Shown here in pieces: positions 5,339-63,141 of a stretch of 64,000 nucleotides of DNA. The stretch spans positions 1 to 64,000 of the IMG/VR virus record IMGVR_UViG_3300036828_001020, one strand, 5' to 3'. How positions within the stretch are numbered: the first letter of the stretch is position 1; each line of letters begins with the position of its first letter. A program made the position numbers and the translations under genes. Under the pieces are notes generated by a model that had not been told where the DNA came from, ran no database searches, and worked only from the letters and a program-made list of their open reading frames with translations. The DNA comes from a virus.

Positions 5339-6369
5339 CGGGTGAACGCCTGGAGTTTGCCGCGTCCGGTACCGGTACATCCGGCCCCGGTGCACACGGC
5401 ATAAAGCTCGGAATTGGCGGGGATTTGCGCGGTACCGCCAACCACCCCCAAATCCTGAAAAGAAATGCCCCCAGCCCCGGCAGTTAGCGAATTGGCATTG
5501 CACGGCGCGTTGCTGAGTTTGGTCCCCGAGGTCGTGACACTCGCCGGCGCCACGGTGTTTGCCGCCACCCAAACATCGATCAACGCCGCAGCGTTCTCGA
5601 TAACCGCAATGATGCAGTTGAGATTGTAGAGAGTGCGTGCCCGGATATTTCCGCCGATCGGCAACGGAGTGCTCGACAGGTCAGTACTACTCGTCCAGGT
5701 CAGCGGAAGGGCGGCCAATGGCGGTAATGGCACATTGATCGCGTTGGCGCCGGTCGAGGTGATCGGCAGCAATGGCGTGTCCGCCGGGATCGTGACCGAG
5801 GCGCCGGCAGTGCCGCCGTTGATCGCATCGGGCGAGGTTGGGGTCACGGTGGCGGTGACCCCAATCGTCGTCACCGTGATGCAGCCGCTACCCGGCAGAC
5901 TCGCTACCAACGGGATCGTCAAAATCCGGCCGGCCGCGCTAAACATATAGCTCTGGCAGCTCGACCACTTGCCGACATCGATCGTGTCGGTAATCGTGAT
6001 CGGCGGTCCCGAGACGAGCGGAGACTGGTTGATAAAATTGGCGCCGTCATAGACCAGACACACCGTCGAGGGTCCGCGGAGATCTCCCAGCCCGACGGCG
6101 AGCGTGCCGACCCCGGTGTTAAAGGCGATCGGCTTAGCCGCACCATTGTTGACCCGCAGGGTAGGTGCCGCCCCGCTCGTCGTGGCGATCACCCCGCACA
6201 CGCCATGACCGGGCGACAGCGAGAACCCCGGTGCCGTCGCTGTGTAGGCGGTCGAGGTGCCGCCAAAGGTGGCGGCGAAGAGTGCGATATTTTCCGCCGA
6301 CACGCCCTGGCCGCGCGCCGGCATAGCGGCCAGCAAGATCGCTGCGGTCAGCGACAGAAGTCTTTTCAT
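5335..6369 (-). CDS. Secreted Cys-rich protein of the tail-adhesin cluster, 344 residues
   Basis: The start at 6369 gives a signal peptide (MKRLLSLTAAILLAAMPARG) preceded by AGGA; a longer frame upstream overlaps the previous gene and is rejected. The mature protein is Thr/Ser/Gly-rich and beta-strand-like, with eight Cys by my count including CTGAGC near the end. No enzyme motif recognised. Fourth exported member of the cluster at 1-6369; role in adsorption or host-surface modification is inferred from position. Confidence 0.65.
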   Translation of the reverse strand: MKRLLSLTAAILLAAMPARGQGVSAENIALFAATFGGTSTAYTATAPGFSLSPGHGVCGVIATTSGAAPTLRVNNGAAKPIAFNTGVGTLAVGLGDLRGPSTVCLVYDGANFINQSPLVSGPPITITDTIDVGKWSSCQSYMFSAAGRILTIPLVASLPGSGCITVTTIGVTATVTPTSPDAINGGTAGASVTIPADTPLLPITSTGANAINVPLPPLAALPLTWTSSTDLSSTPLPIGGNIRARTLYNLNCIIAVIENAAALIDVWVAANTVAPASVTTSGTKLSNAPCNANSLTAGAGGISFQDLGVVGGTAQIPANSELYAVCTGAGCTGTGRGKLQAFTR

Positions 6370-6859: not shown

Positions 6860-7168
6860 CTACCTCGATCCCCGCGTGTCGAAATGCTCGACGGTGAGCG
6901 CCTGGTCGTAAGCGAAGACCCCGCGGCGCCGCCCGGTGCTGTCGTAATGCTGCATCAGCAATTCCTTGATGCGCCCAAAGTATTCGTCAAACGCCCGGCC
7001 GGCGCCCTCGCGGCGCTCGTGGTCCTGGCGCAGCGCATTGATGATCAGATTGGCCGCGGCCCCGATGACGTGGGCGCGCTGATACCCCATCGCCTCGTGC
7101 GACAGCGCTTCGAACAAGGCCCGCTCGCCGTCGCCGACGAGCCGCGGGTCGACGAGCGGATCGCTCAT
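6860..7168 (-). CDS. Small hypothetical tail-region protein
   Basis: 102 residues from an ATG at 7168 that overlaps the preceding stop as ATGA, which decides the start over the longer frame. Mostly helical, charged, with GYQRAHVIGAAANLIINALR. Sits between two tail-tip proteins. No family recognised; a chaperone or linker is possible. Confidence 0.65.
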   Translation of the reverse strand: MSDPLVDPRLVGDGERALFEALSHEAMGYQRAHVIGAAANLIINALRQDHERREGAGRAFDEYFGRIKELLMQHYDSTGRRRGVFAYDQALTVEHFDTRGSR

Positions 7169-7593
7169 AACGTGAATATTCCTGATGCGTTCCAGGTAAT
7201 TGTTATGTTCCCGCCGTTTGGCGTGACTGGTAGACCGGTCACACCCGTGTCCTCGAACAGCACCAGCCGCCAATTGGTATTGGCGAGCGAGTTGGACCGG
7301 TAAAGGATCAGCGCCACGATCGCCGGGCCGGTGGCGACCGCGTTGTAGGTTAAGAGGCCATTATTGGCGAAAGTGCCGTTGGTGATGGTGATCCCCGAGC
7401 CGCCGGTGATCCGCTGATCGGTCCCGGCCCGGCCGGTTATCGAGGTGTAAAACTGATGCGCCGCCGAATAGACATAGGTGGCGGTGACCAGCGCGCAAAA
7501 CACCCCGTCAACCGTCGTGTCAGTGTCGAGATTGACGTTGGTGTCGGCATGCATCAGTGCCTGCTTCCACAAGGGATACACAGCGTTTGCCAT
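7165..7593 (-). CDS. Hypothetical tail protein, 142 residues
   Basis: Starts at ATG 7593 (MANAVYPLWKQALMHADTN) behind AGAGGAG. The N-terminal pattern is common in small phage tail proteins encoded next to baseplate J or fibre genes. Beta-rich, no catalytic motif. Coupled by ATGA to the following 102-residue gene. Confidence 0.7.
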   Translation of the reverse strand: MANAVYPLWKQALMHADTNVNLDTDTTVDGVFCALVTATYVYSAAHQFYTSITGRAGTDQRITGGSGITITNGTFANNGLLTYNAVATGPAIVALILYRSNSLANTNWRLVLFEDTGVTGLPVTPNGGNITITWNASGIFTL

Positions 7594-8858: not shown

Positions 8859-9989
8859 TTAGGAGTAGACCCCGCCGGTCGTTGCATCGACGATTCCGGC
8901 GGTGTCGCCGGGCAACCAGGTCAATGCTTGCCCGTTGGTGTGAAGGAGGCTGCTGGTCTGCACGCGGAAACGCACGCCGGTCGCCGCCCCGGTCCAGGTC
9001 ATCAGCGGGCCGAGGCCATCCCAGAATTGGCACATCGACTGCTGATGAGCATTGCAGAAGACATCGCTAAAATGCGGAGCATTGTTTATAGTCACGTTAA
9101 ATAACGGAGAGTTCGTGGGGTTGTCGGCGCTTGTAACGGCGCCGACAAAGGTGGCATTTGCATTGGTGTCAAGGTGGCGTGCCGCCCCGCCGCTAATCGA
9201 ATACGATCCAGCCAGGCGCAACTGCGAATGTAGGCTCGAGGTCATGTGATAGCCCAGACACGTGGCAAAATCGCAGTTGGCAATACGGATGCGGCCGAGA
9301 TTGATGGTGGCGACAGCATGGCACGGCGCCCCGGTGAAAGGCGGCGTGATCCCGCTAAAGCGAACCCCCTGAATTTGCATTTGCGTGTTGTTGCGGGCGA
9401 GCGCACAAGTGCCGTTCGCCAGGCTTGGCGTGATCACAACATTGCCAGGACTGGTCATGTTGCCCTGAAAAATCAGCTGTGCCGGAGAAGCCAACCCGAG
9501 GATCGTGCTCGACAGCAAAAAGCCGGGGTATTGTCCATCGGCCAGCTGCACGACCACGTTCTTGTTGTTGACGTCGGTATTAAAGCACAGCACGTCGGCG
9601 GCATGCTGCGTGGTGAGCCACGCTGAGGTCGGGCTCTCGCCGTCAAAGCTGTCGCTGCCGGTGGTCCCGTTCACATAGAAAGTCGTGTTGGCATAGAGCA
9701 CCTCGCGCGGCTGCAACGCGGTCAACGCGTCGTGCAATTTGCCGGTGAAACCGGCCAGATCGCCATCGTCGAGCACGTCGACCCCGAGCTCGTTGACGAC
9801 GATCTGCGCCATCGCGGCCGAGATGAACGAGGCTTGCCGCCACACCTTGTTGAGCTTCTGGCTCTGCGCGATGCCGGCGCTAAACCCCGCCGAGGTCGAC
9901 GGATCCGAGGCATAGGATGCCTGGTTCTCGACATTGGCGCCGGCCCCGGTGGCAAAAGGTAAGAAATCGTTGGTGGGAATTGGCCTCAC
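8859..9989 (-). CDS. Tail fibre protein with beta-helix body
   Basis: 376 residues. The N-terminal segment (NDFLPFATGAGANVENQASY, then AGIAQSQKLNKVWRQASF) is the conserved baseplate-attachment domain of many contractile-tail fibres; the rest (FYVNGTTGSDSFDG onward) looks like a right-handed beta-helix. Unlike the four proteins encoded downstream it has no signal peptide. The only usable start is a GTG at 9989, with AGGGGA directly against it; an in-frame stop lies upstream. Confidence 0.8.
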   Translation of the reverse strand: MRPIPTNDFLPFATGAGANVENQASYASDPSTSAGFSAGIAQSQKLNKVWRQASFISAAMAQIVVNELGVDVLDDGDLAGFTGKLHDALTALQPREVLYANTTFYVNGTTGSDSFDGESPTSAWLTTQHAADVLCFNTDVNNKNVVVQLADGQYPGFLLSSTILGLASPAQLIFQGNMTSPGNVVITPSLANGTCALARNNTQMQIQGVRFSGITPPFTGAPCHAVATINLGRIRIANCDFATCLGYHMTSSLHSQLRLAGSYSISGGAARHLDTNANATFVGAVTSADNPTNSPLFNVTINNAPHFSDVFCNAHQQSMCQFWDGLGPLMTWTGAATGVRFRVQTSSLLHTNGQALTWLPGDTAGIVDATTGGVYS

Positions 9990-11344: not shown

Positions 11345-12553
11345 TCACGTCGCCTCGCCCGTGTTGCTGAGGCCAGACCTGACCAGCTGATGGAGATGCT
11401 CGAGCAGGCTGACGGAGCCGCGCTTGCCGGCCACGGTAAACGCGCCGACGACACCCTCGGCCATCTTCAGCGTTCTCGAGATGTCGGTGCCGACGCCGGG
11501 GATCGCGCTCAACAGGCTGACCGCCGAATTGACGCCAACCGTTCCGCTGGCCAGCGCGAAAACAGATTGCCCGAGCGCCTGCCAATTCATCGACGCGCCG
11601 GTCAGGCTTAGCGCATTGGTGATAGTGCTCGCCACACCATTGAGATCAGTGATGCTGTGAAAATCCAGCCCCGTGATCTGTTGGAGCGCACCATTGATCG
11701 AGACCTGGAAGGATCCGTCGTGGATCGCGTTCCAGACACTCATCGCCTGTTCCGCGTCGGACAGCACGGCGCCCACCGCCGCGCCCGGAGTGCTCGGAAG
11801 CCCGCCCGCGCCAGACAGCGGCTGCGCCCCAGCCGAGGATGAGGACGGCACCCCGAACCCTGCGATGACATCGCCGCCCGCGGTGATCTCGCCGGTGACC
11901 TCGAGCATCGGGCTGTTGACGTGAACCTTGCCCGAGGCCTCGATATCGACCGTCGGACTGGTGATCGTGACTTTGTCAGACGCCGAGACGTTGCAATCCT
12001 TGCAGGTGATGTTGACCTGGTTCGGAACGATGATGTTGACCGAGTCACCGGTCAGTTCGATGTAGCAATCGCCCTTGTCGGTGCGGATCTGCAACGTCCC
12101 GAGCGACACCTTGGCGGTCTGGTCGCTGCGCAAGTCGATCTCGAGCATCTGCCCGTTGGCTTGCGGATCGCCCCCGAGCTTGCGCGGCTTTGAGCGGATC
12201 CCCGGGATGTACATCGCGTCGGACAGGTTATGTCGGCGACCGTGCAGTTGTGGCTGCAGCCCGCCCTTGTCCCACCAGCCATCGATACAGCGCGCGCCAA
12301 AGACCGCGATCCCCTCGTCGCCTTTTTTGATTGGGTGGGTGATCGTAAAGCCGCCGCCCGAGCTGAACTGAATCGGCACCTCGGTGCAGACCGGCGGCTC
12401 GATGTCGGTTTGCTTGCCTTGCTGGTCGGTTTGTTTGCCCTTGATGACCGGCTGAACTTTGACGATGTGGCCTTCCGCCGTGTCCTCGGTGACGATCACC
12501 GGGATCGCTGTCCACACCCGCGCCAAGCCGCGCTCGACCCCGGCGCGGATCAC
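11345..12553 (-). CDS. Baseplate spike protein (Gp138/gpV-like) with a sheath-type C-terminal domain
   Basis: 402 residues. Residues about 50-110 (EVPIQFSSGGGFTITHPIKK and GIAVFGARCIDGWWDKG) are the Gp138 N-terminal / gpV OB-fold domain of puncturing devices. A central repetitive beta segment (VNITCKDCNVSASDKVTI) fits the spike beta-helix. From about residue 265 the sequence (LSDAEQAMSVWNAI... GVGTDISRTLKMAEG) matches, position by position, a domain of the DUF3383 sheath at 20327-21814. This fusion is unusual; see findings. Confidence 0.85.
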   Translation of the reverse strand: MIRAGVERGLARVWTAIPVIVTEDTAEGHIVKVQPVIKGKQTDQQGKQTDIEPPVCTEVPIQFSSGGGFTITHPIKKGDEGIAVFGARCIDGWWDKGGLQPQLHGRRHNLSDAMYIPGIRSKPRKLGGDPQANGQMLEIDLRSDQTAKVSLGTLQIRTDKGDCYIELTGDSVNIIVPNQVNITCKDCNVSASDKVTITSPTVDIEASGKVHVNSPMLEVTGEITAGGDVIAGFGVPSSSSAGAQPLSGAGGLPSTPGAAVGAVLSDAEQAMSVWNAIHDGSFQVSINGALQQITGLDFHSITDLNGVASTITNALSLTGASMNWQALGQSVFALASGTVGVNSAVSLLSAIPGVGTDISRTLKMAEGVVGAFTVAGKRGSVSLLEHLHQLVRSGLSNTGEAT

Positions 12554-33718: not shown

Positions 33719-33988
33719 ATGTACACGATCGCGGTTGCCGGTAGCGAATTCGAGACCAGCGCAGATATCCGCGCCAAACTGCACCAGGCTGACGAAATCG
33801 AGGCACGGCACATCAAGGCGATCGATCGTATCGAACGCGAGGGGATCAAGTATTCGAACGAGGATTTCGACATTCTGTCGGGTGCGCGGCACGCGATTTG
33901 GCGCCGCGGAGAATGCGAGCGCCTTGGGCTACATACCAATTGCAGCGCAACGGAATTCTGGGGCGCTAAGGCAAGGGAAACCCAATGA
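33719..33988 (+). CDS. Hypothetical protein, 89 residues
   Basis: ATG 33719 behind CAGGAG. Charged, helical: RAKLHQADEIEARHIKAIDR. First gene after the strong promoter at 33.6 kb. Not recognised; likely an early phage factor. Confidence 0.6.
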   Translation: MYTIAVAGSEFETSADIRAKLHQADEIEARHIKAIDRIEREGIKYSNEDFDILSGARHAIWRRGECERLGLHTNCSATEFWGAKARETQ

Positions 33989-34119
33989 ACAAGCTGACAG
34001 ACAACAACGGATACCTGGTAGCGCGGGGATCAAAGGCGAAGCTGCTGGCCTTCGTCGAGAAACAGCGCCAGTTCGACCCGGGTTATGCCCTTTGGCTCAA
34101 CGGAGTGCGGGTGCTTTAA
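33985..34119 (+). CDS. 44-residue protein
   Basis: Found by hand: ATG 33985 overlaps the previous stop (ATGA) and encodes MNKLTDNNGYLVARGSKAKL to NGVRVL. Ribosome site AAGGGAAA. Mixed composition like a real protein; function unknown. Confidence 0.55.
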   Translation: MNKLTDNNGYLVARGSKAKLLAFVEKQRQFDPGYALWLNGVRVL

Positions 34120-34236
34120 GCACCCAGGAGCGAAACACGATGATGCGGCCGACCTAGAGCGGCCGCCCCTCCGGGATGGGGCACACCCGGCGGTGCCGCG
34201 GCCACTTCGAGCCGCGGGCCGGACAGTTCATAAAAT

Positions 34237-34261
34237 CGGCAATCCTGCCGGGCTCTTTTTT
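34237..34261 (+). terminator. Intrinsic terminator
   Basis: CGGCA-ATCC-TGCCG then GGCTCTTTTTT. It ends the 33.7 kb transcript just before the gene at 34273; the stretch 34120-34236 before it holds no convincing gene. Confidence 0.65.
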
Positions 34262-34272
34262 CGGAGGCTCTC

Positions 34273-34476
34273 ATGAGCGCTTCTCAAATCGCTGCGCGCC
34301 ACTTCGGCCGCCCGGCCGTTGCCACCCTCGCCCGCAAGGGCATTCGGGTGATTGGCCTGCAAGCCATCCCCGACGAGCGCGGCTCGTTCCTCAACTCGAC
34401 CACCGGTTACGTTGTCGACGACAACGGCTGCGGTCGGGTGTGGACCTTCCGCCAAGTAAGTGAGGCGGCGCGGTGA
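34273..34476 (+). CDS. Small hypothetical protein, 67 residues
   Basis: ATG 34273 behind GGAGG. Basic N-terminus (MSASQIAARHFGRPAVATLA), beta-rich end. Overlaps the next gene by four bases (GTGA). Not recognised. Confidence 0.55.
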   Translation: MSASQIAARHFGRPAVATLARKGIRVIGLQAIPDERGSFLNSTTGYVVDDNGCGRVWTFRQVSEAAR

Positions 34477-36240: not shown

Positions 36241-37902
36241 TCACACCCCGCTGCGCGCGGCCCTGCGGGTTTCGGCCCGGCCGGCAAGCGGATCGCGGCC
36301 ACCACTGCCGGACGGCGAGGCGACCGAGGTAACGGTCTGGCCCTGCTGCGGCCCGCCGCCGGCGGGACGCGGTGGCCCGCCCAGCCGCTCGCTCGGCGCC
36401 ATCGGCGGCGGTGGCGGCGGCTCGGGCAAGTCGTCGGGGTCGAGCTCCAGCCCTGCATACGGGCTCTCGGGGTCGGTCGCCAATACCTGGCGCACCTCCT
36501 GGTTGGAGATCGCACCCATCTGCTCGTATTGATCGTGAATGTCGGCCTTGGTCTTTTGCACCGCTGCTTGTCCGGCCTCGTCGAGCTGCCACAGCGATTT
36601 GAAATCAAACGTGATGTCGGGATCGACCCGGCCAAACAACGAGAGTTGGACAAAGTCGATGACCCGGGTCAGCGGCTCGCGAAACAGCTTGTTCTGAACG
36701 GCTCTGATCCAGTCATAGAAAGATCTAATTTCCCCTTCGCTGCTGGCATTGAGACCTGACGGGGTAAGTCCGGTATATTTAATAAGTGGAAGGCCAGAAA
36801 TCGAGCAGATGTGCTCTTGACTTTGCGCCTGCAGCGCCTCGAGACCACCCAACGGTGTCGAGATGTTCTGAAACTCTTCGGTATCCTTGTTGAGGATCAA
36901 CAGCCCTCGGTTGTCGCGGAAAAAATTGTAGAGATCGGCGCGGTTCTCGACGATTGGCTGGCCGCCCCGGTTCAGCATCGCGGTCAGATCGGTCAGCATC
37001 ACGCTGGTCGAGAACGAGCGGATCAGATCGGCGACCGAGTCGCGGGTCTGCACCCATTTGTCGATGTAGGGCTTGGCCATCTGCGACAGCGGCAGACCAC
37101 CAAACATATAGGCGGGCTTTAACAGATCCCGGACCGGGCGCCCGACCAGGGTCAGCAGTCGCGTGGCGTGGATCTGCTTACCCATGACAAACCAGCTTTG
37201 CGGCTTGTACCAATCGGCGCGCAGCGGGTCAGAGCTGTTGTAATCGATCGGATAGGTCCACACCGGCTCGACGGTGCGCACCGCCTTTAGACCGCCCTTG
37301 CGGACCTTGGCGAGCGAAGTCTCGTCGCGGCCATGGCCGATCGAGGTCTTCAGCTCGTTGGGGTTATCAGTGGTGCCGAGATCAAGGTAGAGGTGCCCGC
37401 GGCCAAAAAAACAGTCGAGCTCGGCCAACTCATTACATGCATCCTGCACGCCAAGTCGTTTGAGCTCGTCATAGATCGCGTTGATTTCGAGGGTCTTGTC
37501 CTTGTCGCTTGAGCTTTTGAGCTCGATCCACTCGCGGGTCATCTCCGAGGCCATGACTTCCGCGAGACGCCGGTACTCGCCGCGCTGCGCCAGCTCGGAC
37601 AGCACCGGATAGCCGAGAAAGCTCAGCCCATCGGTATAGTAGACGGCGAGCAATTGCTCGGCCGCCCAATTGGTCGCGGAACCGAGATTGCTGTCCATCG
37701 CCATCGTGGAACGGTCCGGCGGCACGACCCCGGGCATTGGCGGCTTGACCGCAAAGGTCGGCTGTCGCGGTTTGCCGCTCGGTATCTCGCCGCGCCGGCC
37801 GGCATTGTGCAGTGCCGTGGCAAAGTCGATCACCGCAGCCGCTACACCCCGACGTTTGCGTGGCGGCGAGGGGCCGCCGGGCGGCATGTTGACGACAGTC
37901 AC
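36241..37902 (-). CDS. Portal protein (DUF1073 / Acb1-like N-terminal family)
   Basis: 553 residues. NWAAEQLLAVYYTDGLSFLG, LDCFFGRGHLYLDLG and the later SGLPLIKYTGLTPSGLNASS are typical of DUF1073 portals. Located between terminase and gpF-like genes, with an ATGA overlap with terminase. Confidence 0.88.
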   Translation of the reverse strand: MTVVNMPPGGPSPPRKRRGVAAAVIDFATALHNAGRRGEIPSGKPRQPTFAVKPPMPGVVPPDRSTMAMDSNLGSATNWAAEQLLAVYYTDGLSFLGYPVLSELAQRGEYRRLAEVMASEMTREWIELKSSSDKDKTLEINAIYDELKRLGVQDACNELAELDCFFGRGHLYLDLGTTDNPNELKTSIGHGRDETSLAKVRKGGLKAVRTVEPVWTYPIDYNSSDPLRADWYKPQSWFVMGKQIHATRLLTLVGRPVRDLLKPAYMFGGLPLSQMAKPYIDKWVQTRDSVADLIRSFSTSVMLTDLTAMLNRGGQPIVENRADLYNFFRDNRGLLILNKDTEEFQNISTPLGGLEALQAQSQEHICSISGLPLIKYTGLTPSGLNASSEGEIRSFYDWIRAVQNKLFREPLTRVIDFVQLSLFGRVDPDITFDFKSLWQLDEAGQAAVQKTKADIHDQYEQMGAISNQEVRQVLATDPESPYAGLELDPDDLPEPPPPPPMAPSERLGGPPRPAGGGPQQGQTVTSVASPSGSGGRDPLAGRAETRRAARSGV

Positions 37903-39269
37903 CGCCGGATCACGCCAACGACCGGTCGCCGGATCAGCATGTCGTTGGTGACGATCACCGGCGGCGGCGCCGGCTCGACCAGAAGCTCGCTAAAGGCCCA
38001 GACCAACGCGTCGACCCGGTCGGGCGAGCCGGCCATGTCTCTGTCGATATCGACGGTAAAGGATGTCATCTGAGCCTCCAGCTCGGGAAAATTCCCGACG
38101 TGGTGGATCCTTCGCTGCTCATAGAGGGCCGAGACCGGCTCGGCGCGGATCACCTTGCCGCGCGAGGCATGCACGGGCGTGTAGGCCACATTCGGGTCAA
38201 CCATGCGGATGGTGTTCTCGACCATCTCGCCACCAGCATTGATCTCGGCGACGATCCGGTCAGCCTTGCGCTCCGGGTTGCTGTATTGGGCAATTGCGGC
38301 GCGCGCCCATTCGATCGGCTGATAATGCCCGGAGACATCGGCCAGCACATAGCCGTGCCCGTTCCAATCCTTGCCGGCGACAATGATCCCGGTCTCATCG
38401 GCATCCTCACCCGAGGTCATCGCGGGGTCGATCGCCACCACGACGCGCTGCAAATTTGGCAATCTGTAACCATAGGGCAACCGATCGCGCTCGATGCTTT
38501 CGTGCGTCCATAGCGCGCCCGGCACATCCTCGAGCAGCTCGGCATAGATCTCCTGGCGACCGAGGCGCGTGCCTTCGTAGCGGCGCAGGATCTGGTCAAA
38601 AAAGCTGGCCGGCAAATTGGACTGGTTATCAAAGGTCGAGCCGCGGGTGACCGTGGTCGTCGAAGCGGTCAGCAACTCGCGGATCAGCTTTGTCGGACGC
38701 GGTGTGGTGGTTACACAAACCCGCGGATGCGGCCCGAGGCGCAGCCCGAACATCAGCATGTCCCAGGCCTCGGGATAGCGCCACGCGCCAATCTCGTCGC
38801 ACCACGCTGCGTCGTGTTGCGGTCCGCGCAAACGCTCCGGCTCATCGGCTGAGTAGGCAGTCGCCTGCGCGCCGTTGGACCACACGAGACGACGCTTGGA
38901 GGGCTCGTATTGCGGTCGCGCCCACGGCGGCGAGATCGCCAGGATGCCGCTTTGCCCCTCGATCATCACATCGCGCACATCGGCCGCGGTGGCGGCGACC
39001 AGCGCGAGCCTGCCGTGCCCGGCAGCGATCTGCATGCGGCACCATTCGGCACCCGCTCGGGTCTTGCCAAATCCGCGACCGGCGAGCATCAGCCAGACCA
39101 GCCAATCGCCCGCCGGCGGCAGCTGGTTGGCGCGTGCCCACCATTCGCCCCAGGCATAGGGAAATTCGGTCTGCGCCTTAGCCGACCACCTTGCCATTAC
39201 CGCGTGCCGCTGAGGCGGGCTCAGCTGCGCCAGCTGCTCGACTGGCGAGAGCGTCGATAAGCTGCTCAT
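37899..39269 (-). CDS. Terminase large subunit
   Basis: About 456 residues from ATG 39269; a longer start at 39290 is possible. Walker A LMLAGRGFGKTRAG, Walker B HDAAWCDEIGAW, coupling segment VCVTTTPRPTKL, and nuclease acids in VVAIDPAMTSGEDADE and VAEINAGGEM. An intact ATPase-nuclease that packages DNA. Overlaps the small subunit by about 90 nt. Confidence 0.93.
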   Translation of the reverse strand: MSSLSTLSPVEQLAQLSPPQRHAVMARWSAKAQTEFPYAWGEWWARANQLPPAGDWLVWLMLAGRGFGKTRAGAEWCRMQIAAGHGRLALVAATAADVRDVMIEGQSGILAISPPWARPQYEPSKRRLVWSNGAQATAYSADEPERLRGPQHDAAWCDEIGAWRYPEAWDMLMFGLRLGPHPRVCVTTTPRPTKLIRELLTASTTTVTRGSTFDNQSNLPASFFDQILRRYEGTRLGRQEIYAELLEDVPGALWTHESIERDRLPYGYRLPNLQRVVVAIDPAMTSGEDADETGIIVAGKDWNGHGYVLADVSGHYQPIEWARAAIAQYSNPERKADRIVAEINAGGEMVENTIRMVDPNVAYTPVHASRGKVIRAEPVSALYEQRRIHHVGNFPELEAQMTSFTVDIDRDMAGSPDRVDALVWAFSELLVEPAPPPVIVTNDMLIRRPVVGVIRR

Positions 39270-39639
39270 TGCGCTTACGGGCCTCCGCAATCGGCATTGG
39301 CAACGACAGCTCGACGGCCCCGCCGTCCTTGCCGGTCATCTCCAGGCGCCGGGTAAAGCCGCGGCTCTTGCCGAGCGTCTCCAGGTAGAACCGCGCCGCA
39401 TTCAGGTCTTTGTTCTGCAGCGCCTCGACCATGATCTGTTCGGCCATATCGACAGTAAAATCGCGAGCCTGCTCGCACGCCTCCTGCAGGCGCTTGGAGC
39501 GGTGCACCGCCATGGCGACGAGCTCGCGCGAGCATGATTTTCCGGTCTCGGCTTGCAATGCGCGTGCCGCAGCGGCTTTGATGCCGCCCTGCGAGCGCAA
39601 CGCCCGCTCGATTTGCTCGGCTGTAAAGATCCGTGCCAT
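39178..39639 (-). CDS. Terminase small subunit
   Basis: 153 residues. N-terminal helix-turn-helix-like AEQIERALRSQGGIKAAAAR with VHRSKRLQEA, then QIMVEALQNKDLNAARFYLE and GFTRRLEMTG, the pattern of small terminases next to this large-subunit family. TGATG overlap with the preceding mini-gene. Confidence 0.8.
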   Translation of the reverse strand: MARIFTAEQIERALRSQGGIKAAAARALQAETGKSCSRELVAMAVHRSKRLQEACEQARDFTVDMAEQIMVEALQNKDLNAARFYLETLGKSRGFTRRLEMTGKDGGAVELSLPMPIAEARKRNEQLIDALASRAAGAAEPASAARGNGKVVG

Positions 39640-40229: not shown

Positions 40230-40268
40230 GAAGCGCTGCTCGAAACTTCGCTTCACCACACGAAAGGG
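40230..40268 (+). ncRNA. Hairpin leader element, copy 1
   Basis: GAAGCG pairs with CGCTTC; the loop contains GCTCGAAAC, and CACGAAAGG (the Shine-Dalgarno) follows. Same layout as copies 2 and 3. Possibly a translation-control element of the mRNA leader. Confidence 0.5.
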
Positions 40269-40524: not shown

Positions 40525-40537
40525 TAACGAACCCCGC

Positions 40538-40574
40538 CCGGCGCTCGAAACGCCGGCAAACCCCACGAAAGGAT
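40538..40574 (+). ncRNA. Hairpin leader element, copy 2
   Basis: CCGGCG-CTCGAAA-CGCCGG followed by CAAACCCCACGAAAGGA. Nearly identical to copy 3. Lies before the secreted 101-residue gene. Confidence 0.6.
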
Positions 40575-41008: not shown

Positions 41009-41209
41009 ATGACACCCCAAGAACTGCGCGCCTGGCGTCTCTCACTCGGCTGGTCGCAGCCGCAAGCGGCCACCGCACTTGGTATGGCGACGCGCTCCTA
41101 TAGGTACCTCGAGGCCGGCGAAACCAGCACCCGGGCGAGCCGCCGCGAAGTGCCGGTTGCGATCGAGCTGGCAACCCATGAACTCACGCGCCGCCACAAA
41201 GAAAGTTAA
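41009..41209 (+). CDS. XRE-family helix-turn-helix regulator
   Basis: 66 residues. PQELRAWRLSLGWSQPQAAT then ALGMATRSYRYLEAG is a full Cro/CI HTH. ATG behind GAGGAG. The stretch 40887-41008 carries a degenerate fourth leader copy (GCTCGAAC and CACGAAAG). Could control the promoter at 40190 with its palindrome. Confidence 0.75.
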   Translation: MTPQELRAWRLSLGWSQPQAATALGMATRSYRYLEAGETSTRASRREVPVAIELATHELTRRHKES

Positions 41210-41220
41210 TTCCCAGTTAA
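41206..41220 (+). promoter_or_regulatory. Candidate CtrA box
   Basis: TTAA-TTCCCAG-TTAA matches the full CtrA site TTAA-N7-TTAA. It overlaps the XRE stop codon and lies about 55 bp before the lipoprotein gene, in the operon that encodes the SciP homologue. Confidence 0.55.
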
Positions 41221-41227
41221 TTCCCCG

Positions 41228-41263
41228 CCGGTGCTCGAAACGCCGGCAAACCCACGAAAGGAA
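41228..41263 (+). ncRNA. Hairpin leader element, copy 3
   Basis: CCGGTG-CTCGAAA-CGCCGG, then CAAACCCACGAAAGGA. Compared with copy 2 one base differs in the stem (C to T), giving a G-U pair that keeps the stem. Confidence 0.6.
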
Positions 41264-41273
41264 ACCTTCACCG

Positions 41274-41597
41274 ATGTTCGACGCAATCATTGCCGGTATA
41301 GCTTTAGGCTTGGCAATCCTCGCCCTACTGCTGCTCTCGGGCTGCACCGCCCCGGTTCCCGGCTACACCTGGAATAAGACCGCGGCCACCCAGGCCGATT
41401 TCGCCAGCGATAGCTTTGGGTGCAAGCAAACCGCGCGGGCGACCGTTCCCGGTGGCGGTGTGGCGGTCGGCGGGCTGGCGTTTGTCCTGATCGCCACCGC
41501 GGTGCGCGCCGAGAACACTCACAATGGCCAACAGCAAGTCTACAACGAGTGCATGGCGGCACTCGGCTACACCCCGACCCCGGCGGTCGCGCCATGA
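41274..41597 (+). CDS. Lipoprotein, 107 residues
   Basis: MFDAIIAGIALGLAILALLL followed by lipobox LLSGC gives a type II signal. Mature part SFGCKQTARATVPGGG and a hydrophobic segment (VGGLAFVLIATAV). Behind hairpin leader copy 3. Phage lipoproteins are often superinfection-exclusion factors or Rz1-like spanins; neither is proven here. Confidence 0.65.
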   Translation: MFDAIIAGIALGLAILALLLLSGCTAPVPGYTWNKTAATQADFASDSFGCKQTARATVPGGGVAVGGLAFVLIATAVRAENTHNGQQQVYNECMAALGYTPTPAVAP

Positions 41598-41818
41598 TGG
41601 ACGCGCCAACCACCGGTATGTTTTGGCTGGCGATCGGGTTATTCGCCAAAATCTTGCTGACCACGGCGGCCACCTTTGACGGTGGCGCCGGGAGCGAGCC
41701 GCCCTATTCCTGCCGGCTCCTCTACGACGAGCAAAAGAAGTGCGCGTTTGGCAGCTGCGACACGCGGGTCCTCGAGCGGCTGCGCAACGAGTGTCTGCGC
41801 GATGGCGGGCGGCCATGA
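41594..41818 (+). CDS. Membrane-anchored Cys-motif protein, 74 residues
   Basis: ATGA overlap with the lipoprotein gene. N-terminal hydrophobic segment (MFWLAIGLFAKILLTTAATF), then CRLLYDEQKKCAFGSCDTRV and RNEC. The pattern C-x2-L-x4-Q-x-K-C ... C ... R-x2-C is shared with the protein at 39755-39994. Confidence 0.6.
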   Translation: MMDAPTTGMFWLAIGLFAKILLTTAATFDGGAGSEPPYSCRLLYDEQKKCAFGSCDTRVLERLRNECLRDGGRP

Positions 41819-41991
41819 CTATGCCGCGTAGTCTCGACGGAACCTACTGCCACGCGTGCGGCGGCGAGATGTTCATCCAACCGGATGGCGTGTCGCACCA
41901 CGGCCGGCTTGGCGAGATAAGCCACGATGACGACGCCGACCACGTCGCGGTTGCCGATGTCGAGGGCGCCGCGCTGGGGGAGGGGTGCTGA
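41815..41991 (+). CDS. Small zinc-finger-like protein, 58 residues
   Basis: ATGA overlap. YCHACGGEMFIQPDGVSHH offers a CxxC and His pair; acidic C-terminus. Not recognised. Confidence 0.5.
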   Translation: MTMPRSLDGTYCHACGGEMFIQPDGVSHHGRLGEISHDDDADHVAVADVEGAALGEGC

Positions 41992-42257
41992 TGGGCTATC
42001 ATCAAATGCCCGATCTCGAGACCCTGGCGGGTGAGTTACCCGATCCACTCCAGCGATGGACGGCACGGCGCAAGGCGGCAGTGGTCGCGGCGATCACGCT
42101 GCAGCGGATCAGCCGCGAGGAGGCGTGCCGCCGTTATCAGGTGACCGAGGAGGAATTAACGGACTGGATCGCCCGGCTTGAGCAGCATGGCGTCCGCGGG
42201 TTGCGGACCACGCGGCTCCAGCAATTCCGACCAGTCGCAAAGGCTGACTTAGCATGA
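41991..42257 (+). CDS. SciP-like protein (DUF1153), CtrA antagonist homologue
   Basis: 88 residues from ATG 41991 (TGATG overlap, GGGAGGGG upstream). LPDPLQRWTARRKAAVVAAI, then EEACRRYQVTEEELTDWIAR and HGVRGLRTTRLQQFRP follow the DUF1153/SciP family across its whole length, including the conserved RW..RRKA and LRTTR-Q blocks. SciP in Caulobacter binds CtrA-controlled promoters and blocks CtrA from activating them. A phage copy could reset the host cell cycle. Function by homology only. Confidence 0.85.
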   Translation: MGYHQMPDLETLAGELPDPLQRWTARRKAAVVAAITLQRISREEACRRYQVTEEELTDWIARLEQHGVRGLRTTRLQQFRPVAKADLA

Positions 42258-42424
42258 GCAACGACATGGTCGACATCGCGACCGCGGCCACCAAAGCCGA
42301 CGTTCATAGAGCGCTGGCCGAGCTGCGCCTCGACCTGCTCAAATGGAAGGTGGTGCAAACCATGGTGATCATCACCGCGCTCGGCGGGTTGATCATCTTG
42401 CTGCATTTCGGGACTAAGCCATGA
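42254..42424 (+). CDS. 56-residue coiled-coil membrane protein
   Basis: Found by hand. ATGA overlaps at both ends. TKADVHRALAELRLDLLKWK then a membrane helix VVQTMVIITALGGLIILL. Similar layout to DUF1640-type small coiled-coil membrane proteins. Confidence 0.65.
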   Translation: MSNDMVDIATAATKADVHRALAELRLDLLKWKVVQTMVIITALGGLIILLHFGTKP

Positions 42425-43023
42425 CCGACGACAAGATCCAGCGCCTGCCGATCGCCAGGGATGAGCTCGACGCGACCTTGCGCGCGACGCTGGCGCGCGA
42501 TGAGATGACCCGCATCCAACTCGGGGAAGGTCCCGAAGCCATCATCGTCGCCGATGCCTACCCGCGGCGGCAATGCGGGCAATGCACATTTTGTTGCACC
42601 GCGGCCGGGGTCAACGAGCTCGAAAAGCTGCCGATGAAGCGCTGCCAACATCTGCGCGACGGCGGCTGCGGGATTTACCCGGATCGCCCCTCGAGCTGCG
42701 CCAAATTCTCTTGCGGCTGGCTGATCGGCAATTTCGACGAGCGCTTCCGGCCCGACAAGATCGGTGCCTACGTCGCATTTTTCATGACCGAGGAGTTCGG
42801 CTTTTACGCGGTGGTGCAGATGATGACTGCCCGCGCCAAGCCCAAACGGATCGCGCAGATGATCAAGCGCCTGTTGGTGTGGGTGCCCGAGGTGCGTGTC
42901 GTTGTCGACGACGCGCACGGGACGATCTACCGGCATGACAAGCCGCCCTGCCGATTTATCAGGCTCGACCGCGAGCCCGGTGACTACGAGACGCTTATTT
43001 ACCGACTGCTCGATCCACGATGA
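42421..43023 (+). CDS. YkgJ-type Cys-cluster protein
   Basis: 200 residues. CGQCTFCCTAAGV, then RCQHLRDGGCGIYPDRPSSC and FSCGW give the YkgJ family cluster (CxxCxxCC ... C ... C), thought to bind zinc or an iron-sulfur centre. Frame intact. Coupled on both sides by ATGA. Role in the phage unknown. Confidence 0.8.
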   Translation: MTDDKIQRLPIARDELDATLRATLARDEMTRIQLGEGPEAIIVADAYPRRQCGQCTFCCTAAGVNELEKLPMKRCQHLRDGGCGIYPDRPSSCAKFSCGWLIGNFDERFRPDKIGAYVAFFMTEEFGFYAVVQMMTARAKPKRIAQMIKRLLVWVPEVRVVVDDAHGTIYRHDKPPCRFIRLDREPGDYETLIYRLLDPR

Positions 43024-43369: not shown

Positions 43370-43521
43370 ACTTCCCGACGCGCGAAGCATGCGACCGCGC
43401 TCGAGAGGGCTATAACGGCTGGCCATCACGAACCTACGCGCTGTGCCGACCAATTCAGACACCCAAGGTAGGAGCCAGCCCTGACCTCGACCCGGCTCCG
43501 GCTCGGCCCTTATTTTTATAG
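43303..43521 (+). CDS. Small hypothetical protein, 72 residues
   Basis: ATG 43303 behind CCGGAGAAA. WMIVIYEMNTHRLVIEQPLH and a Pro-rich tail; no membrane segment. Its 3' end contains repeat A1. Not recognised. Confidence 0.5.
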   Translation: MLEWMIVIYEMNTHRLVIEQPLHFPTREACDRAREGYNGWPSRTYALCRPIQTPKVGASPDLDPAPARPLFL

Positions 43522-43540
43522 CCTCGAAAAACCCGATCCC
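43508..43540 (+). repeat. Repeat A, copy 1
   Basis: 33 bp identical to 43695-43727 (begins CCTTATTTTTATAGCCTCG). It is followed directly by repeat B1. Confidence 0.8.
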
Positions 43541-43585
43541 CGGCGGCTCTCATGTCGTGGTTCCGAGGGTCTTCTCGTTGACCGC
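43541..43585 (+). repeat. Repeat B, copy 1 (fossil of a gene end)
   Basis: 45 bp closely matching 44013-44057, which in the minus direction is the 3' end of the gene 44022-44267. Copy 1 lacks the gene body, so it looks like a leftover of a duplication with deletion. Confidence 0.65.
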
Positions 43586-43588
43586 ACG

Positions 43589-43708
43589 ATGATTTCGAAA
43601 AGTCGAGGGGCTGTGATCAGGATGATTGGCCTGGCGCTGATCTGGGCCGGGACTGTGATCACGATGATTGGCCTGGCGCTGATCTGGACCGCGGCCTTAT
43701 TTTTATAG
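43589..43708 (+). CDS. 39-residue membrane protein with internal duplication
   Basis: Found by hand. The product is MISKSRGA followed by two 14-residue units, VIRMIGLALIWAGT and VITMIGLALIWTAA, then LFL. The duplication is exact in DNA phase (42 bp). No clear Shine-Dalgarno. A hydrophobic helix-repeat of this size could be a small membrane effector or junk made by repeat expansion. Confidence 0.4.
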   Translation: MISKSRGAVIRMIGLALIWAGTVITMIGLALIWTAALFL

Positions 43709-43727
43709 CCTCGAAAAACCCGATCCC
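43695..43727 (+). repeat. Repeat A, copy 2
   Basis: Identical to 43508-43540; here it ends at the stop of the minus gene 43729-44025. Confidence 0.8.
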
Positions 43728-47436: not shown

Positions 47437-48218
47437 GCTGGCAATCCGACCTTTTTGATCTGATACGGGATCGCCAGTGGTATCAGGTCGGCGAGCTGTT
47501 TGAAATCTGCGAGAGCCAGATCCCGTTACATTTAGCGATGCGCCGCGCGATGGCGCCCAGCCGCTATCGCACCGAGCTGCCAACCAATTTTGAAGCCCGG
47601 TTGTTAGCATTTCGCATGATATTGTCGGTGTTTGGCGTTGAGACCGAGACGCCGCCGCGAGGGCGCCGGTATGGCACTCCCAAGTTCCAATGGAATACGC
47701 GGATCCGTCTGCGCTACCTGGCCAACCGCAGCTGTCCGGTTTGTCGCGGGCCGGTAATCAAGGCCTCTTGGTCAATCAGGGCCGCTGATTATGGCGCCTG
47801 CGCAGCCAGTTGTCTGGCCTGTGAAAAGCCACCCGCACCGGTAATCACCTTCCCCGGTTTACTCGAACAACGACGGCGGTTGCTCACACTCATTGACATA
47901 ATCCACAAGCCGATCGTTACGGCGGCACCGGCAGCCGTGCTCCCGCAACGCGGCTGGGTGAGCCTGGTGCACAATCCCATGGTGGACGCCCCCAACGTGC
48001 ATCGATTGCTATTTCACAATCACCGCGATTTGGCTCGGGCGATCAAGCGCACGCTGGGATTTGGCTCGATCAACGGCTATGAACGCGAGCTTGATCGAAA
48101 CCAGGGTGATGGCGGCGCCATTCTCCACAAACACGGCATGACTATTACGGATTTATATTATCGGTTGATCGGAATGCCCTGGCGTGGTGCTCGAAGAATT
48201 TCACCAGGCTCCAAATGA
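47433..48218 (+). CDS. Partner of the ParB-like protein, zinc-ribbon containing, 261 residues
   Basis: TTG start at 47433 overlaps the preceding stop. N-terminal wHTH-like DLFDLIRDRQWYQVGELFEI, then CPVCRGPV with CAASCLAC about 30 residues on, a four-Cys zinc site. Family not recognised; constant pairing with the ParB-like gene suggests a joint role. Confidence 0.6.
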   Translation: MSWQSDLFDLIRDRQWYQVGELFEICESQIPLHLAMRRAMAPSRYRTELPTNFEARLLAFRMILSVFGVETETPPRGRRYGTPKFQWNTRIRLRYLANRSCPVCRGPVIKASWSIRAADYGACAASCLACEKPPAPVITFPGLLEQRRRLLTLIDIIHKPIVTAAPAAVLPQRGWVSLVHNPMVDAPNVHRLLFHNHRDLARAIKRTLGFGSINGYERELDRNQGDGGAILHKHGMTITDLYYRLIGMPWRGARRISPGSK

Positions 48219-48817: not shown

Positions 48818-49396
48818 TCATTCCGCCGCCTCGGGGGTTTGTCCGCTTTCTTCACGGACGCGCACACCCAACTCGCGCGCCAATTCGTCCAGGTCGACAT
48901 CGTTCTCAGGCGGCCCAAAGATGCGCCGTGTGCTCTGCTGCCAGCGCTCCTGCCAATGGCGCGCGAAGTCGCCGGCCGCGGTCGCCCAGGCGAGTGCCTC
49001 GGGAGTGCGCTCCCCATTGGGCAGCCGGTCCGGTCCCGCCCAGGCGATCCTGCGCAGCCTCTCGACCTCGTCGGCCTGCGACCACCAGAGCTTGCGCTCC
49101 TCATCGCTCAAGCCGGGCGGCGGCGTCATCGCGGCGCGTTCGGGTTGTTTGGGCTCCGGGTGCGCGCGGCGCCACATCGCTTCGGCCTGGCCAATCAAAT
49201 ACGGATCGAACCAGCGGCCTTCCTGGTCGATCGGCGATACTCGTTTGGCATCGTCCAGCACCACCCGGCGCCAGCCGTAATCGTAGGCGTGATATTGCGA
49301 GCGCTCTGGATGGGTCAGCGCCGACCAGGAATAGCCGCCCGCCTTGAATTTCTGCTGGAGGCTCTCGCGGTGCTCCAGGCTCGGGAAGGTGCTCAT
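48818..49396 (-). CDS. Hypothetical protein, 192 residues
   Basis: ATG 49396 overlaps the preceding stop (ATGA). Trp-rich and charged: HPERSQYHAYDYGWRRVVLD and LWWSQADEVERLRRIAWAGP. Downstream of the winged-helix replication-type gene. Unknown function. Confidence 0.6.
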   Translation of the reverse strand: MSTFPSLEHRESLQQKFKAGGYSWSALTHPERSQYHAYDYGWRRVVLDDAKRVSPIDQEGRWFDPYLIGQAEAMWRRAHPEPKQPERAAMTPPPGLSDEERKLWWSQADEVERLRRIAWAGPDRLPNGERTPEALAWATAAGDFARHWQERWQQSTRRIFGPPENDVDLDELARELGVRVREESGQTPEAAE

Positions 49397-50115
49397 GGCG
49401 CGATCCCGCTCTGGATTTTCCACTCGCGCATGTCGTCCCACCGTTCCGACCGCATCCGGTGGTCGGTCTCGTCGAGCATGCGCTGGGCAGCCGCGGGGTC
49501 GTCCCCGAGCATGGCGGCCCAGTAGGCCGCGAGACCCTCAAAGCGGCGGCGGGCTGTCAGAAAGCGGGCCAGTTTCTGGACCAGCAGATCGCGCCGCTTC
49601 TTGCGCAGCGCTGGGCTGCTGGGCGGCCGCCACCGCCGCGGGGCAGTATTCCGGCTTAGAGGGGCGAAGGGTGTGCCAGGTCGGTGTTCAACCTTGATGC
49701 CAGCAAAGGGCGCATCGCGCCCATCTTCAGGATTCGTGTCCGTTTTTTCCTCTTTTCCCTTCGCGCGCGCGGCGTTAAGGGATTCAGACTTATCAACAGA
49801 TTCTGAATCCTTTTTGGCTATGCCTTTCGTTCCAACGGTGGAGCAGCGCGCGACGCGATAGCCATCGGCGATCTGATACACGTTTGACTTGCTGCCGCCG
49901 CGGCAGTCGATCGTGATCGCGCCGCGAATTCGTAACTTTTTGAGCGCTCGATTGAGGGTCCCGATCGTCATGCGAGCGACCAGCGCGAGTCGGCGCTGAC
50001 CAGGCCAGCAGCGGCCGAATAAATCGGCGAAACGATGCAGTGCGGCGAGCGCTTTGAATTCTGTCGGATCGAGATCGAAAGCCGCGTCGTTAAGCTGGAC
50101 AAACGGGAGCGTCAT
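49393..50115 (-). CDS. Winged-helix protein, replication-initiator-like
   Basis: 240 residues. N-terminal LDPTEFKALAALHRFADLFG, then ALVARMTIGTLNRALKKLRI is the helix-turn-helix used by lambda O / RepA-type phage replication proteins. Low-complexity linker, then a helical C-terminal part (LARFLTARRRFEGLAAYWAA). Encoded close to the candidate origin at 50.7-50.9 kb, which supports a replication role. Confidence 0.6.
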   Translation of the reverse strand: MTLPFVQLNDAAFDLDPTEFKALAALHRFADLFGRCWPGQRRLALVARMTIGTLNRALKKLRIRGAITIDCRGGSKSNVYQIADGYRVARCSTVGTKGIAKKDSESVDKSESLNAARAKGKEEKTDTNPEDGRDAPFAGIKVEHRPGTPFAPLSRNTAPRRWRPPSSPALRKKRRDLLVQKLARFLTARRRFEGLAAYWAAMLGDDPAAAQRMLDETDHRMRSERWDDMREWKIQSGIAP

Positions 50116-53192: not shown

Positions 53193-53975
53193 TTAAGCGG
53201 CTGGTCGGGGATCTGCGGGCGGCGGCGGTGGTGCGTCGTCGCGCAGATCAAAGATCAGCTTGGTTCGATCACCGGACGCCCGATCAATCAGCCAGGCCAG
53301 CTTCTCCTCCTCGCCGCTCGCGGCACTGTCGGCGCGGTTGGCATTGACGCGCTTCATGCCGACATGCAGCTCATACTGGCGGATCGTGCAGAAGCGGGCA
53401 TAGACGCTGCGGCTCTTGCCGGGCACGCTGGCGTCAGGGAAGGCGACTATTCCATCGATCTTCTTGCCGCCGGCAAAGGTGAACAGCATCAGCTGGCCGT
53501 CGTCATCCTCGAGCTCGACGCCGGTTTCCTCGATGTCGGCATGGGCACAAAGATCACTCAGCGCTGTTTTGTCGGCCTCCGGCCGCAGATGCCATGCGAA
53601 ATCGCTGTCGGCAGCTTCACGCATCCGCCCCAACAGCTCGCGAGCCTGGCGCTGCTCGCCGCCGGACAGCACGTCGATATAGCCTGTCAAATCGTCGAGC
53701 ATTGCGATCCGCGCGGCGGCGCGGGCCGCAGCCCCCTGCTCGTCATGGACCGCCCGCCAAGCGGAGCGCCAGAGCACTGTAAGCAGTTCGTCGGCAGCGT
53801 TAGCGACACCCCAAGTAATCGGATCGCCATGGGCCAGATCAAGAAACGAGGTGAGACCTTCCAGCGAAAAGCCGCCTCGACCGTCCTTGCCTTTGATGTA
53901 TTTCCGAACTTCGGTTTTGACCCGCGGCAATAGGCGGGTGGAATAGCTAGGTAGTCTGCCGCGGCCTCCGCTCAT
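53193..53975 (-). CDS. Hypothetical protein coupled to ParB-like gene 2, 260 residues
   Basis: Start ATG 53975 (MSGGRGRLPSYSTRLLPRVK) inside the 3' end of the ParB-like gene, 29 bp overlap. Helical with TGYIDVLSGGEQRQARELLG and VYARFCTIRQYELHVGMKRV; Pro-rich tail. Probably acts with the ParB-like protein, in the position of a replication or partition partner. Not recognised. Confidence 0.6.
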   Translation of the reverse strand: MSGGRGRLPSYSTRLLPRVKTEVRKYIKGKDGRGGFSLEGLTSFLDLAHGDPITWGVANAADELLTVLWRSAWRAVHDEQGAAARAAARIAMLDDLTGYIDVLSGGEQRQARELLGRMREAADSDFAWHLRPEADKTALSDLCAHADIEETGVELEDDDGQLMLFTFAGGKKIDGIVAFPDASVPGKSRSVYARFCTIRQYELHVGMKRVNANRADSAASGEEEKLAWLIDRASGDRTKLIFDLRDDAPPPPPADPRPAA

Positions 53976-62100: not shown

Positions 62101-62338
62101 CCCGCTTTATCTCGGTCGACGGCCACGTCTACAAAATCGCCGAGGATGTAGATCTGTTCAATGTGACGATCATCAACAGCAAAGGCCTGGTGATCGCAGG
62201 GAAAATCTTAGAGCCAACGTCCCCCGACAACGTGTCGGAAAATCTTACAGGTTCGGGCGACCCTGCTGATGACGCATCAACGGCTTAGAATAAAGCGACA
62301 AGGGCTTAGGCAAAAAGCGCCTGTCGGAAAATTTTACA
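62059..62338 (+). repeat. Three copies of a TGTCGGAAAA-TTTACA motif
   Basis: GTGTCGGAAAACTTTACAGG at 62059, GTGTCGGAAAATCTTACAGG at 62232 and TGTCGGAAAATTTTACA at 62322. Two lie at the 3' ends of genes, one between genes. Confidence 0.65.
62097..62288 (+). CDS. Small hypothetical protein, 63 residues
   Basis: ATG 62097 overlaps the previous stop (ATGA). MTRFISVDGHVYKIAEDVDL and NVTIINSKGLVIAGKILEP; ends VSENLTGS..., similar to the end of the previous protein. Confidence 0.5.
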   Translation: MTRFISVDGHVYKIAEDVDLFNVTIINSKGLVIAGKILEPTSPDNVSENLTGSGDPADDASTA

Positions 62339-62433
62339 CTCGGTCTTTGCCGTGTCCGCCGACCCCGCAGAAACTCTATGGTGGCTCGTTTCTTGCTCAT
62401 AAAGCAATTAAATCAATTACCCAGGAGCTTGCC

Positions 62434-63141
62434 ATGATCAAAGAATTTCTCGCCGGCGTTGCCCTGACATTTGGCATTTTCACACTTGCCGGTGCGGCGC
62501 AAGCCGTGCCCTGCAGCGGCACCACGACAACCCTTGCCAATGGCAATTCGGTGGCCGCCTCGTTTCTGGTCGGCGCGGGCGGTGCCTCGACCGGCAATTG
62601 CGTGGCCGCGGGCGACAAAATCTTTGGCGCCTTCTCGACCTCGGGGGCCATCACCAACACCGGGAGTGCGAGCTTCTCGTTCTTTATGACGCCGGGCAAT
62701 GTGACGATCGGCTTTGCCGGGGTCGTGGCACCCAGCTCGGTGGGCGGTATAGACTATGCGGTGGCGGTTGATCCGGCCTTGGCCAACGGCTTTCAAATCG
62801 ACGATTTGCAAAAGGACTTCACGCTCAACGCCAGCGACGGCGGGCTCGCAGCCAGCGCCACCTTGACCGGGTTCACCACGCCGGCCTCGATCGACTTTAG
62901 CTGCACGCGCACGGTCAATCCGACAACCTCGAGCTGCCCGCAAACCGCATCCTTTAGCCCGGTTACCGGCGATCTCGACGTCAACCAGACGATCACCACC
63001 GGCGCCAATGCGATCGTTACCGCATTGACCGACACGATCTCACAGACCCCAGCGGCGGTTCCCGAGCCGGCCTCGCTGGCGATCCTCGGCTCGGCACTGG
63101 CCGGCATGGGATGGCTGCTCCGACGCCGGCGGCAAGTCTAA
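62434..63141 (+). CDS. PEP-CTERM secreted protein, 235 residues
   Basis: Signal peptide FLAGVALTFGIFTLAGAAQA and a C-terminal VPEPASLAILGSALAGMGWL plus LRRRRQV: the VPEP motif, membrane helix and Arg cluster of PEP-CTERM sorting signals, processed by an exosortase in EPS-making bacteria. Middle is a Gly/Ala/Ser/Thr-rich beta domain. ATG behind CAGGAG. A phage-encoded PEP-CTERM protein is unusual; presumably uses host exosortase. Confidence 0.85.
   Translation: MIKEFLAGVALTFGIFTLAGAAQAVPCSGTTTTLANGNSVAASFLVGAGGASTGNCVAAGDKIFGAFSTSGAITNTGSASFSFFMTPGNVTIGFAGVVAPSSVGGIDYAVAVDPALANGFQIDDLQKDFTLNASDGGLAASATLTGFTTPASIDFSCTRTVNPTTSSCPQTASFSPVTGDLDVNQTITTGANAIVTALTDTISQTPAAVPEPASLAILGSALAGMGWLLRRRRQV

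Follow-up and report, generated by a model that had tools for sequence, protein, structure and literature searches.

Does a phage that carries a relative of SciP behind a CtrA box act on the cell-cycle circuit of its host? SciP is an alphaproteobacterial protein that restrains the cell-cycle master regulator CtrA. A gene of this type lies in the window analyzed here, which takes in the initial 64,000 bases of a virus record (G000) of 69,179 bp, and the preliminary description took it for a phage SciP homologue by which the phage answers to CtrA sensed through an upstream TTAA-N7-TTAA box. The first part of that claim stands, in that the gene belongs to the DUF1153 family and recurs in many phages; the sensing of CtrA through the box is not supported.

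A small-gene operon beside the terminase

The phage origin of the DNA is clear from the record, which is myovirus-like and contains terminase, portal, major head, tail sheath, tape measure and baseplate genes, together with a replication-initiator-like gene, a CI-like HTH gene and RecT; the genome has a GC content of 63%. A bacterial-flank artefact was considered for the window and rejected, since phage structural genes are present in the record and no bacterial flank was seen. From the known range of the DUF1153 family and the loci found, the host is presumably alphaproteobacterial.

The coordinates of the features are collected in Table 1. Six plus-strand genes (41274-43023) have stop and start codons that abut or overlap throughout, which supports the earlier assignment of box-proximal genes and DUF1153 gene to the same operon. 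The XRE gene lies directly upstream of the operon and its stop codon falls inside the TTAA-N7-TTAA box. The nearest relative of the phage (L088) encodes a homologue of the first operon gene (37% over 91 aa), and the final gene of the overlapping run has a Pfam CxxCxxCC match below the cut-off. The operon leader ends in GAAAGGA, which is ribosome-binding-like. The leader repeat GCTCGAAAC...CACGAAAGG precedes three successive small genes in the window (40238-40267, 40533-40572 and 41223-41265). Elsewhere in the window, an exact 33-bp direct repeat, its copies 187 bp apart, is found around a 42-bp tandem repeat (43508-43727), and the C-terminus of a phage gene product (62269-63141) scores 24.4 bits for the PEP-CTERM sorting motif, above the cut-off of 20.7.

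Table 1. Coordinates of features in the window and in phages carrying shortened DUF1153 genes
Feature	Record	Position	Strand	Remarks
Terminase large subunit	window	37899..39290	-	Terminase_6N/6C; PHROG 979; divergent from DUF1153 operon
XRE-type HTH gene, 66 aa	window	41009..41209	+	HTH_3 25.2 bits, cut-off 23
Perfect 11-bp tandem duplication (AGTTAATTCCC x2)	window	41204..41225	+	contains box 41206-41220
Operon leader	window	41223..41265	+	repeat of 40533-40572 leader, partly of 40238-40267; repeat families D5, D6, D11
Small lipoprotein-like gene (operon gene 1), 107 aa	window	41274..41597	+	LLLSGC lipobox
Small membrane-type protein gene, 74 aa	window	41594..41818	+	no Pfam/PHROG family match
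CxxC-containing gene, 58 aa	window	41815..41991	+	no Pfam/PHROG family match
DUF1153 / SciP-like HTH gene, 88 aa	window	41991..42257	+	Pfam PF06627
Membrane-type gene, 56 aa	window	42254..42424	+	overlaps DUF1153 stop codon
Cysteine-cluster protein gene (CxxCxxCC-like), 200 aa	window	42421..43023	+	PHROG 9155, E 2.4e-8
Exact CtrA boxes	XM05	78203, 84518, 84977, 96521, 96551, 96613, 97793
GcrA homologue	G068	49289-49747
GcrA homologue	G063	47614-48054
GcrA homologue	G054	33862-34311
GcrA homologue	G055	2647-2946
GcrA homologue	G066	6880-7209

Relation of the 88-aa protein to SciP

The open reading frame starts with ATG and shows coding-type GC by codon position. Its product matches Pfam PF06627 (DUF1153) with 82.3 bits (E 2.8e-23), well above the gathering threshold of 23.5. 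Of the 87 profile positions, 20-87 are matched, less than the whole profile; the unmatched positions 1-19 correspond to the N-terminal arm of SciP (IGPDG-type). The protein had been called a full-length DUF1153 protein: the family name is right, the length is not. The best NCBIfam match is NF051866, "CtrA inhibitor SciP", with 82.9 bits. Because this score is below the curated equivalog cut-off of 100 bits, the window protein is, by the curated rule, a DUF1153 homologue and no SciP equivalog. The same run gave 141.8 bits for the S. meliloti protein and 140.9 for a viral full-length copy (L004). In whole genomes, chromosomal copies range from about 99 to 146 bits, besides a small number of weak matches (31-77 bits) and trailing HTH matches near 20 bits that fall below the cut-off. 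The phage copies (31-82 bits) lie between chromosomal SciP and most chance HTH matches. A transposase HTH identity was rejected: IS3/IS66/IS630-type scores are 18-28 bits as against 82 for DUF1153, and the window protein shares with these transposases a weak HTH-level similarity but lacks their catalytic domain.

The protein is 50% identical to S. meliloti SciP over 70 aa. In a gapless alignment, T11 falls on the T of LTIADLP and T52 on the T of LTVEEF. The full-length copy L004 has a single pair of T residues 41 positions apart, the spacing of T24 and T65 in Caulobacter SciP, and this pair is the one aligned to T11 and T52; we therefore infer that T11 and T52 are the equivalents of T24 and T65, both of which were sought and found in the window protein. 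The Caulobacter alleles sciP(T24I) and sciP(T65A) relieve the action of SciP, and over-expressed T65A SciP has little effect (PMC4241560). An AlphaFold model of the protein (mean pLDDT 75) gave as best Foldseek matches in the PDB the DUF1153 NMR structures 2jrt (probability 1.00, E 0.09, TM 0.56) and 2oa4 (probability 0.98, E 0.17, TM 0.47). The likeness to SciP (NF051866, PF06627) extends to the HTH core, the T24/T65 equivalents and the predicted DUF1153 fold; the differences are the N-terminal arm, the score and an RWT motif in place of RWV. The genes also differ in setting: that of S. meliloti lies beside ctrA/fliJ, whereas the window gene is phage-borne and lies beside the terminase.

The TTAA-N7-TTAA box at 41206

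The feedback proposed earlier was that host CtrA binds the box and drives the operon, and that the phage SciP then shuts CtrA-dependent transcription. The exact motif, TTAATTCCCAGTTAA at 41206-41220, was confirmed, and it is the sole copy in the window and in the 69,179-bp record. Its end is 771 bp from the DUF1153 ATG, in agreement with the distance of about 770 bp given before, and the first of the overlapping operon genes starts 54 bp after it. This is a plausible promoter position and favors the circuit; no sigma-70-like promoter was found near it, which does not. The box is part of the only exact 11-bp tandem duplication in the window, and one duplication of the TTAA-containing 11-mer alone yields the motif. 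By chance, 0.07 boxes are expected in the window, and 7 of 100 dinucleotide-shuffled windows had at least one, i.e. a chance of about 7% per window.

CtrA sites control genes of other alphaproteobacterial phages (PMC9437464), a point in favor of the circuit. In phages these sites can be clustered, and lytic deferment has been proposed (Mascolo et al. 2022, PMC9437464). Unlike such phages, the window phage has one exact site in 69 kb, derived from the tandem duplication; clustered intergenic CtrA sites were looked for and not found. Nor was the site found to be conserved in relatives: i) no TTAA is found in the gap before the homologue of the first operon gene in the nearest relative, whose terminase is 79% identical; ii) the exact box is absent from all 50 terminase-related records (about 1.4 Mb); and iii) no box with one mismatch or less is found in the upstream 1 kb, or the available part of it, of the 17 other phage DUF1153 genes. 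The box as a family trait was rejected on the last two counts. Within the window itself, no TTAA precedes the leader copy at 40533-40572, 690 bp upstream of the operon leader. The box could bind CtrA; most likely, judging from these comparisons, it is an accidental small duplication outside any conserved feedback circuit, and the proposed circuit finds no comparative support.

A phage subfamily of shortened DUF1153 proteins

A scan of IMG/VR with the window protein alone gave no close relatives. A seven-row alignment was too variable for scanning, so a degenerate DNA pattern of the conserved residues was used, in addition to other scans. DUF1153 matches above the Pfam cut-off were present in 25 viral records besides the window. 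Seven or eight of these have full-length copies, often near contig ends, which are probably bacterial flanks or captured host genes; the full-length hits near contig ends (G051, G058, G072 and G065, host flank likely) were kept apart from the shortened copies, which were found in 17 records and in the window. The Terminase_6N domain is also present in 9 of the 23 viral records tested.

The 18 shortened phage rows were aligned with 103 bacterial rows. Nearly all of the former lack the N-terminal arm (Caulobacter positions about 13-23) and nearly all of the latter have it, and position 37 is T (RWT) in 15 of 18 phage rows as against V (RWV) in 102 of 103 bacterial rows. On a tree, 3 changes (bootstrap 3-6) account for the phage rows, compared with 16 when the labels are shuffled. 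The phage rows may have a single origin; the tree was built on 85 columns only, too few to place that origin or to settle most of the forks.

The position of the gene also recurs. In four phages (G000, G010, G066 and G071) it belongs to a small-gene array on the strand opposite to the terminase, at a distance of about 2.7-3.5 kb. A conserved small gene precedes it in G066 and G062, and in G071, as in the window, an XRE gene is upstream. Since the terminase-side position and neighboring genes are shared by several phages, the gene appears to be a maintained phage gene. Two different DUF1153 genes were seen in G055 (11950-12156 and 49700-49879) and in G061 (9439-9621 and 53466-53654).

These comparisons suggest a phage-specific subfamily of shortened DUF1153 (SciP-type) HTH proteins that is recurrent and apparently undescribed. 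No published description of a phage-encoded SciP/DUF1153 member was found in the literature searched, and within that literature the novelty claimed for such a protein holds. The known cargo of this kind consists of GcrA homologues in phiCbK-like Caulobacter phages and CcrM analogues in Sinorhizobium phages (cited in PMC9437464), next to the use of CtrA sites. The window phage is like these phages in carrying a relative of a host cell-cycle regulator, and unlike them in that the regulator is of the SciP family.

CtrA boxes and GcrA homologues in carrier phages

A DUF1153 match was found in one of 50,697 GenBank phage records, that of the cultured Erythrobacter phage XM05 (PV416404). The gene, XM05_97 (79914-80108, minus strand), is annotated "hypothetical protein" and encodes a minimal copy of 64 aa, beginning at the RYTARIK motif. 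All seven exact CtrA boxes of XM05 (loci L003, L223) are intergenic and lie between 78 and 98 kb of the 152-kb genome, a stretch in which 0.08 are expected; four share one non-coding gap of 1.5 kb (96391-97910) next to the terminase. A metagenomic phage, G053 (IMGVR_UViG_3300043640_000137), also encodes a minimal copy (78136-78315, minus strand); its two dense TTAA arrays, in the non-coding gaps at 5655-5686 and 85270-85317 (loci L224, L225), contain four exact CtrA boxes in all. XM05 and G053 resemble the phages with clustered CtrA sites described before (PMC9437464). Because both join CtrA-box clusters to a shortened DUF1153 gene, the general idea that phages act on the CtrA/SciP axis lives on in another form. 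The remaining 16 of the 18 carriers of shortened copies have no exact box or the duplicated window site only.

GcrA homologues above the cut-off are present in 5 of 18 records with shortened copies and in 2 of 46 related records without DUF1153 (Fisher P 0.016; not significant, P 0.11, when weighted by record length), a co-occurrence that is only suggestive. No GcrA match was found in the window phage.

Possible roles of the phage protein

It is quite possible, and tentatively preferred here, that the phage SciP-like protein acts on host transcription controlled by CtrA and SciP. The gene, as a member of the shortened subfamily in a small accessory gene cassette beside the terminase, would be expressed during infection; its product would regulate transcription by binding SciP-type DNA sites and/or CtrA, and would damp CtrA-activated host genes while the phage replicates. 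SciP binds GCGNC-type sites and represses CtrA-activated promoters (PMC4287350). SciP-type sites were taken as GCGNC or GCGNC-N5-GNCGC, and GCGNC is too short to inform in a genome of this GC content. The DNA target of the protein could equally be a phage promoter. Counted in favor of action on the host are the Pfam score, the recurrence of the subfamily, its clustering on the tree, RWT, the T24/T65 equivalents and the predicted fold, as well as the CtrA-box clusters in two carriers, GcrA in five and the similar terminase-side position. Counted against it are the missed equivalog cut-off, the missing N-terminal arm, the 16 carriers in which exact boxes are absent or merely duplicated, and the lack of significance of the GcrA co-occurrence by record length.

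Rather doubtful, though a serious competitor, is a SciP-descended HTH protein that regulates the phage's own genes only and has ceased to act on CtrA and on the cell cycle of the host. Its long branches, the loss of the arm and the sub-equivalog score fit such a regulator, as do the XRE regulator co-located in the window and G071, the small conserved partner gene in G066 and G062, and the presence of DUF1153 copies at two places in G055 and G061. The retention of the T24 and T65 equivalents, and the fact that some carriers also have CtrA boxes or GcrA homologues, argue the other way. Improbable is a dominant-negative or decoy that would sit on CtrA or on the DNA sites of host SciP without repressing and in this way relieve host SciP, leaving CtrA genes, e.g. 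those for pili or flagella, switched on: the HTH core is kept and the arm lost in nearly all phage copies, as a decoy would have it, but in the window copy part of the arm, with the T24 equivalent, is retained. The circuit through the 41206 box is very improbable on the evidence given above.

The preferred action on the host can be extended to a broader proposal, which we consider unlikely as it stands: alphaproteobacterial phages would have evolved a minimal SciP subfamily that shuts down or retunes the host CtrA program, joined in XM05 and G053 with CtrA-site arrays that read the cell-cycle state of the host, so that the phage would supply both a sensor and an inhibitor on one axis. Should the minimal phage proteins inhibit CtrA, they would define the smallest active SciP core and provide a tool for switching off a CtrA regulon, and phages would be acting on the CtrA circuit from both sides. 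The lasting result is the recurrent phage SciP-like family; one of its members is carried by a cultured phage, XM05, which makes the question testable without metagenomic material.

Two minor observations concern the range of the genes. One phage contig with a DUF1153 gene, L185 (G064, IMGVR_UViG_3300029914_000111), has 42% GC compared with 60-69% in the others. Apparently chromosomal DUF1153 genes on two contigs of peat alphaproteobacterium MAGs (L028 and L033) are also without the N-terminal arm; they fall near the window protein on the tree and are a possible source of the phage gene.
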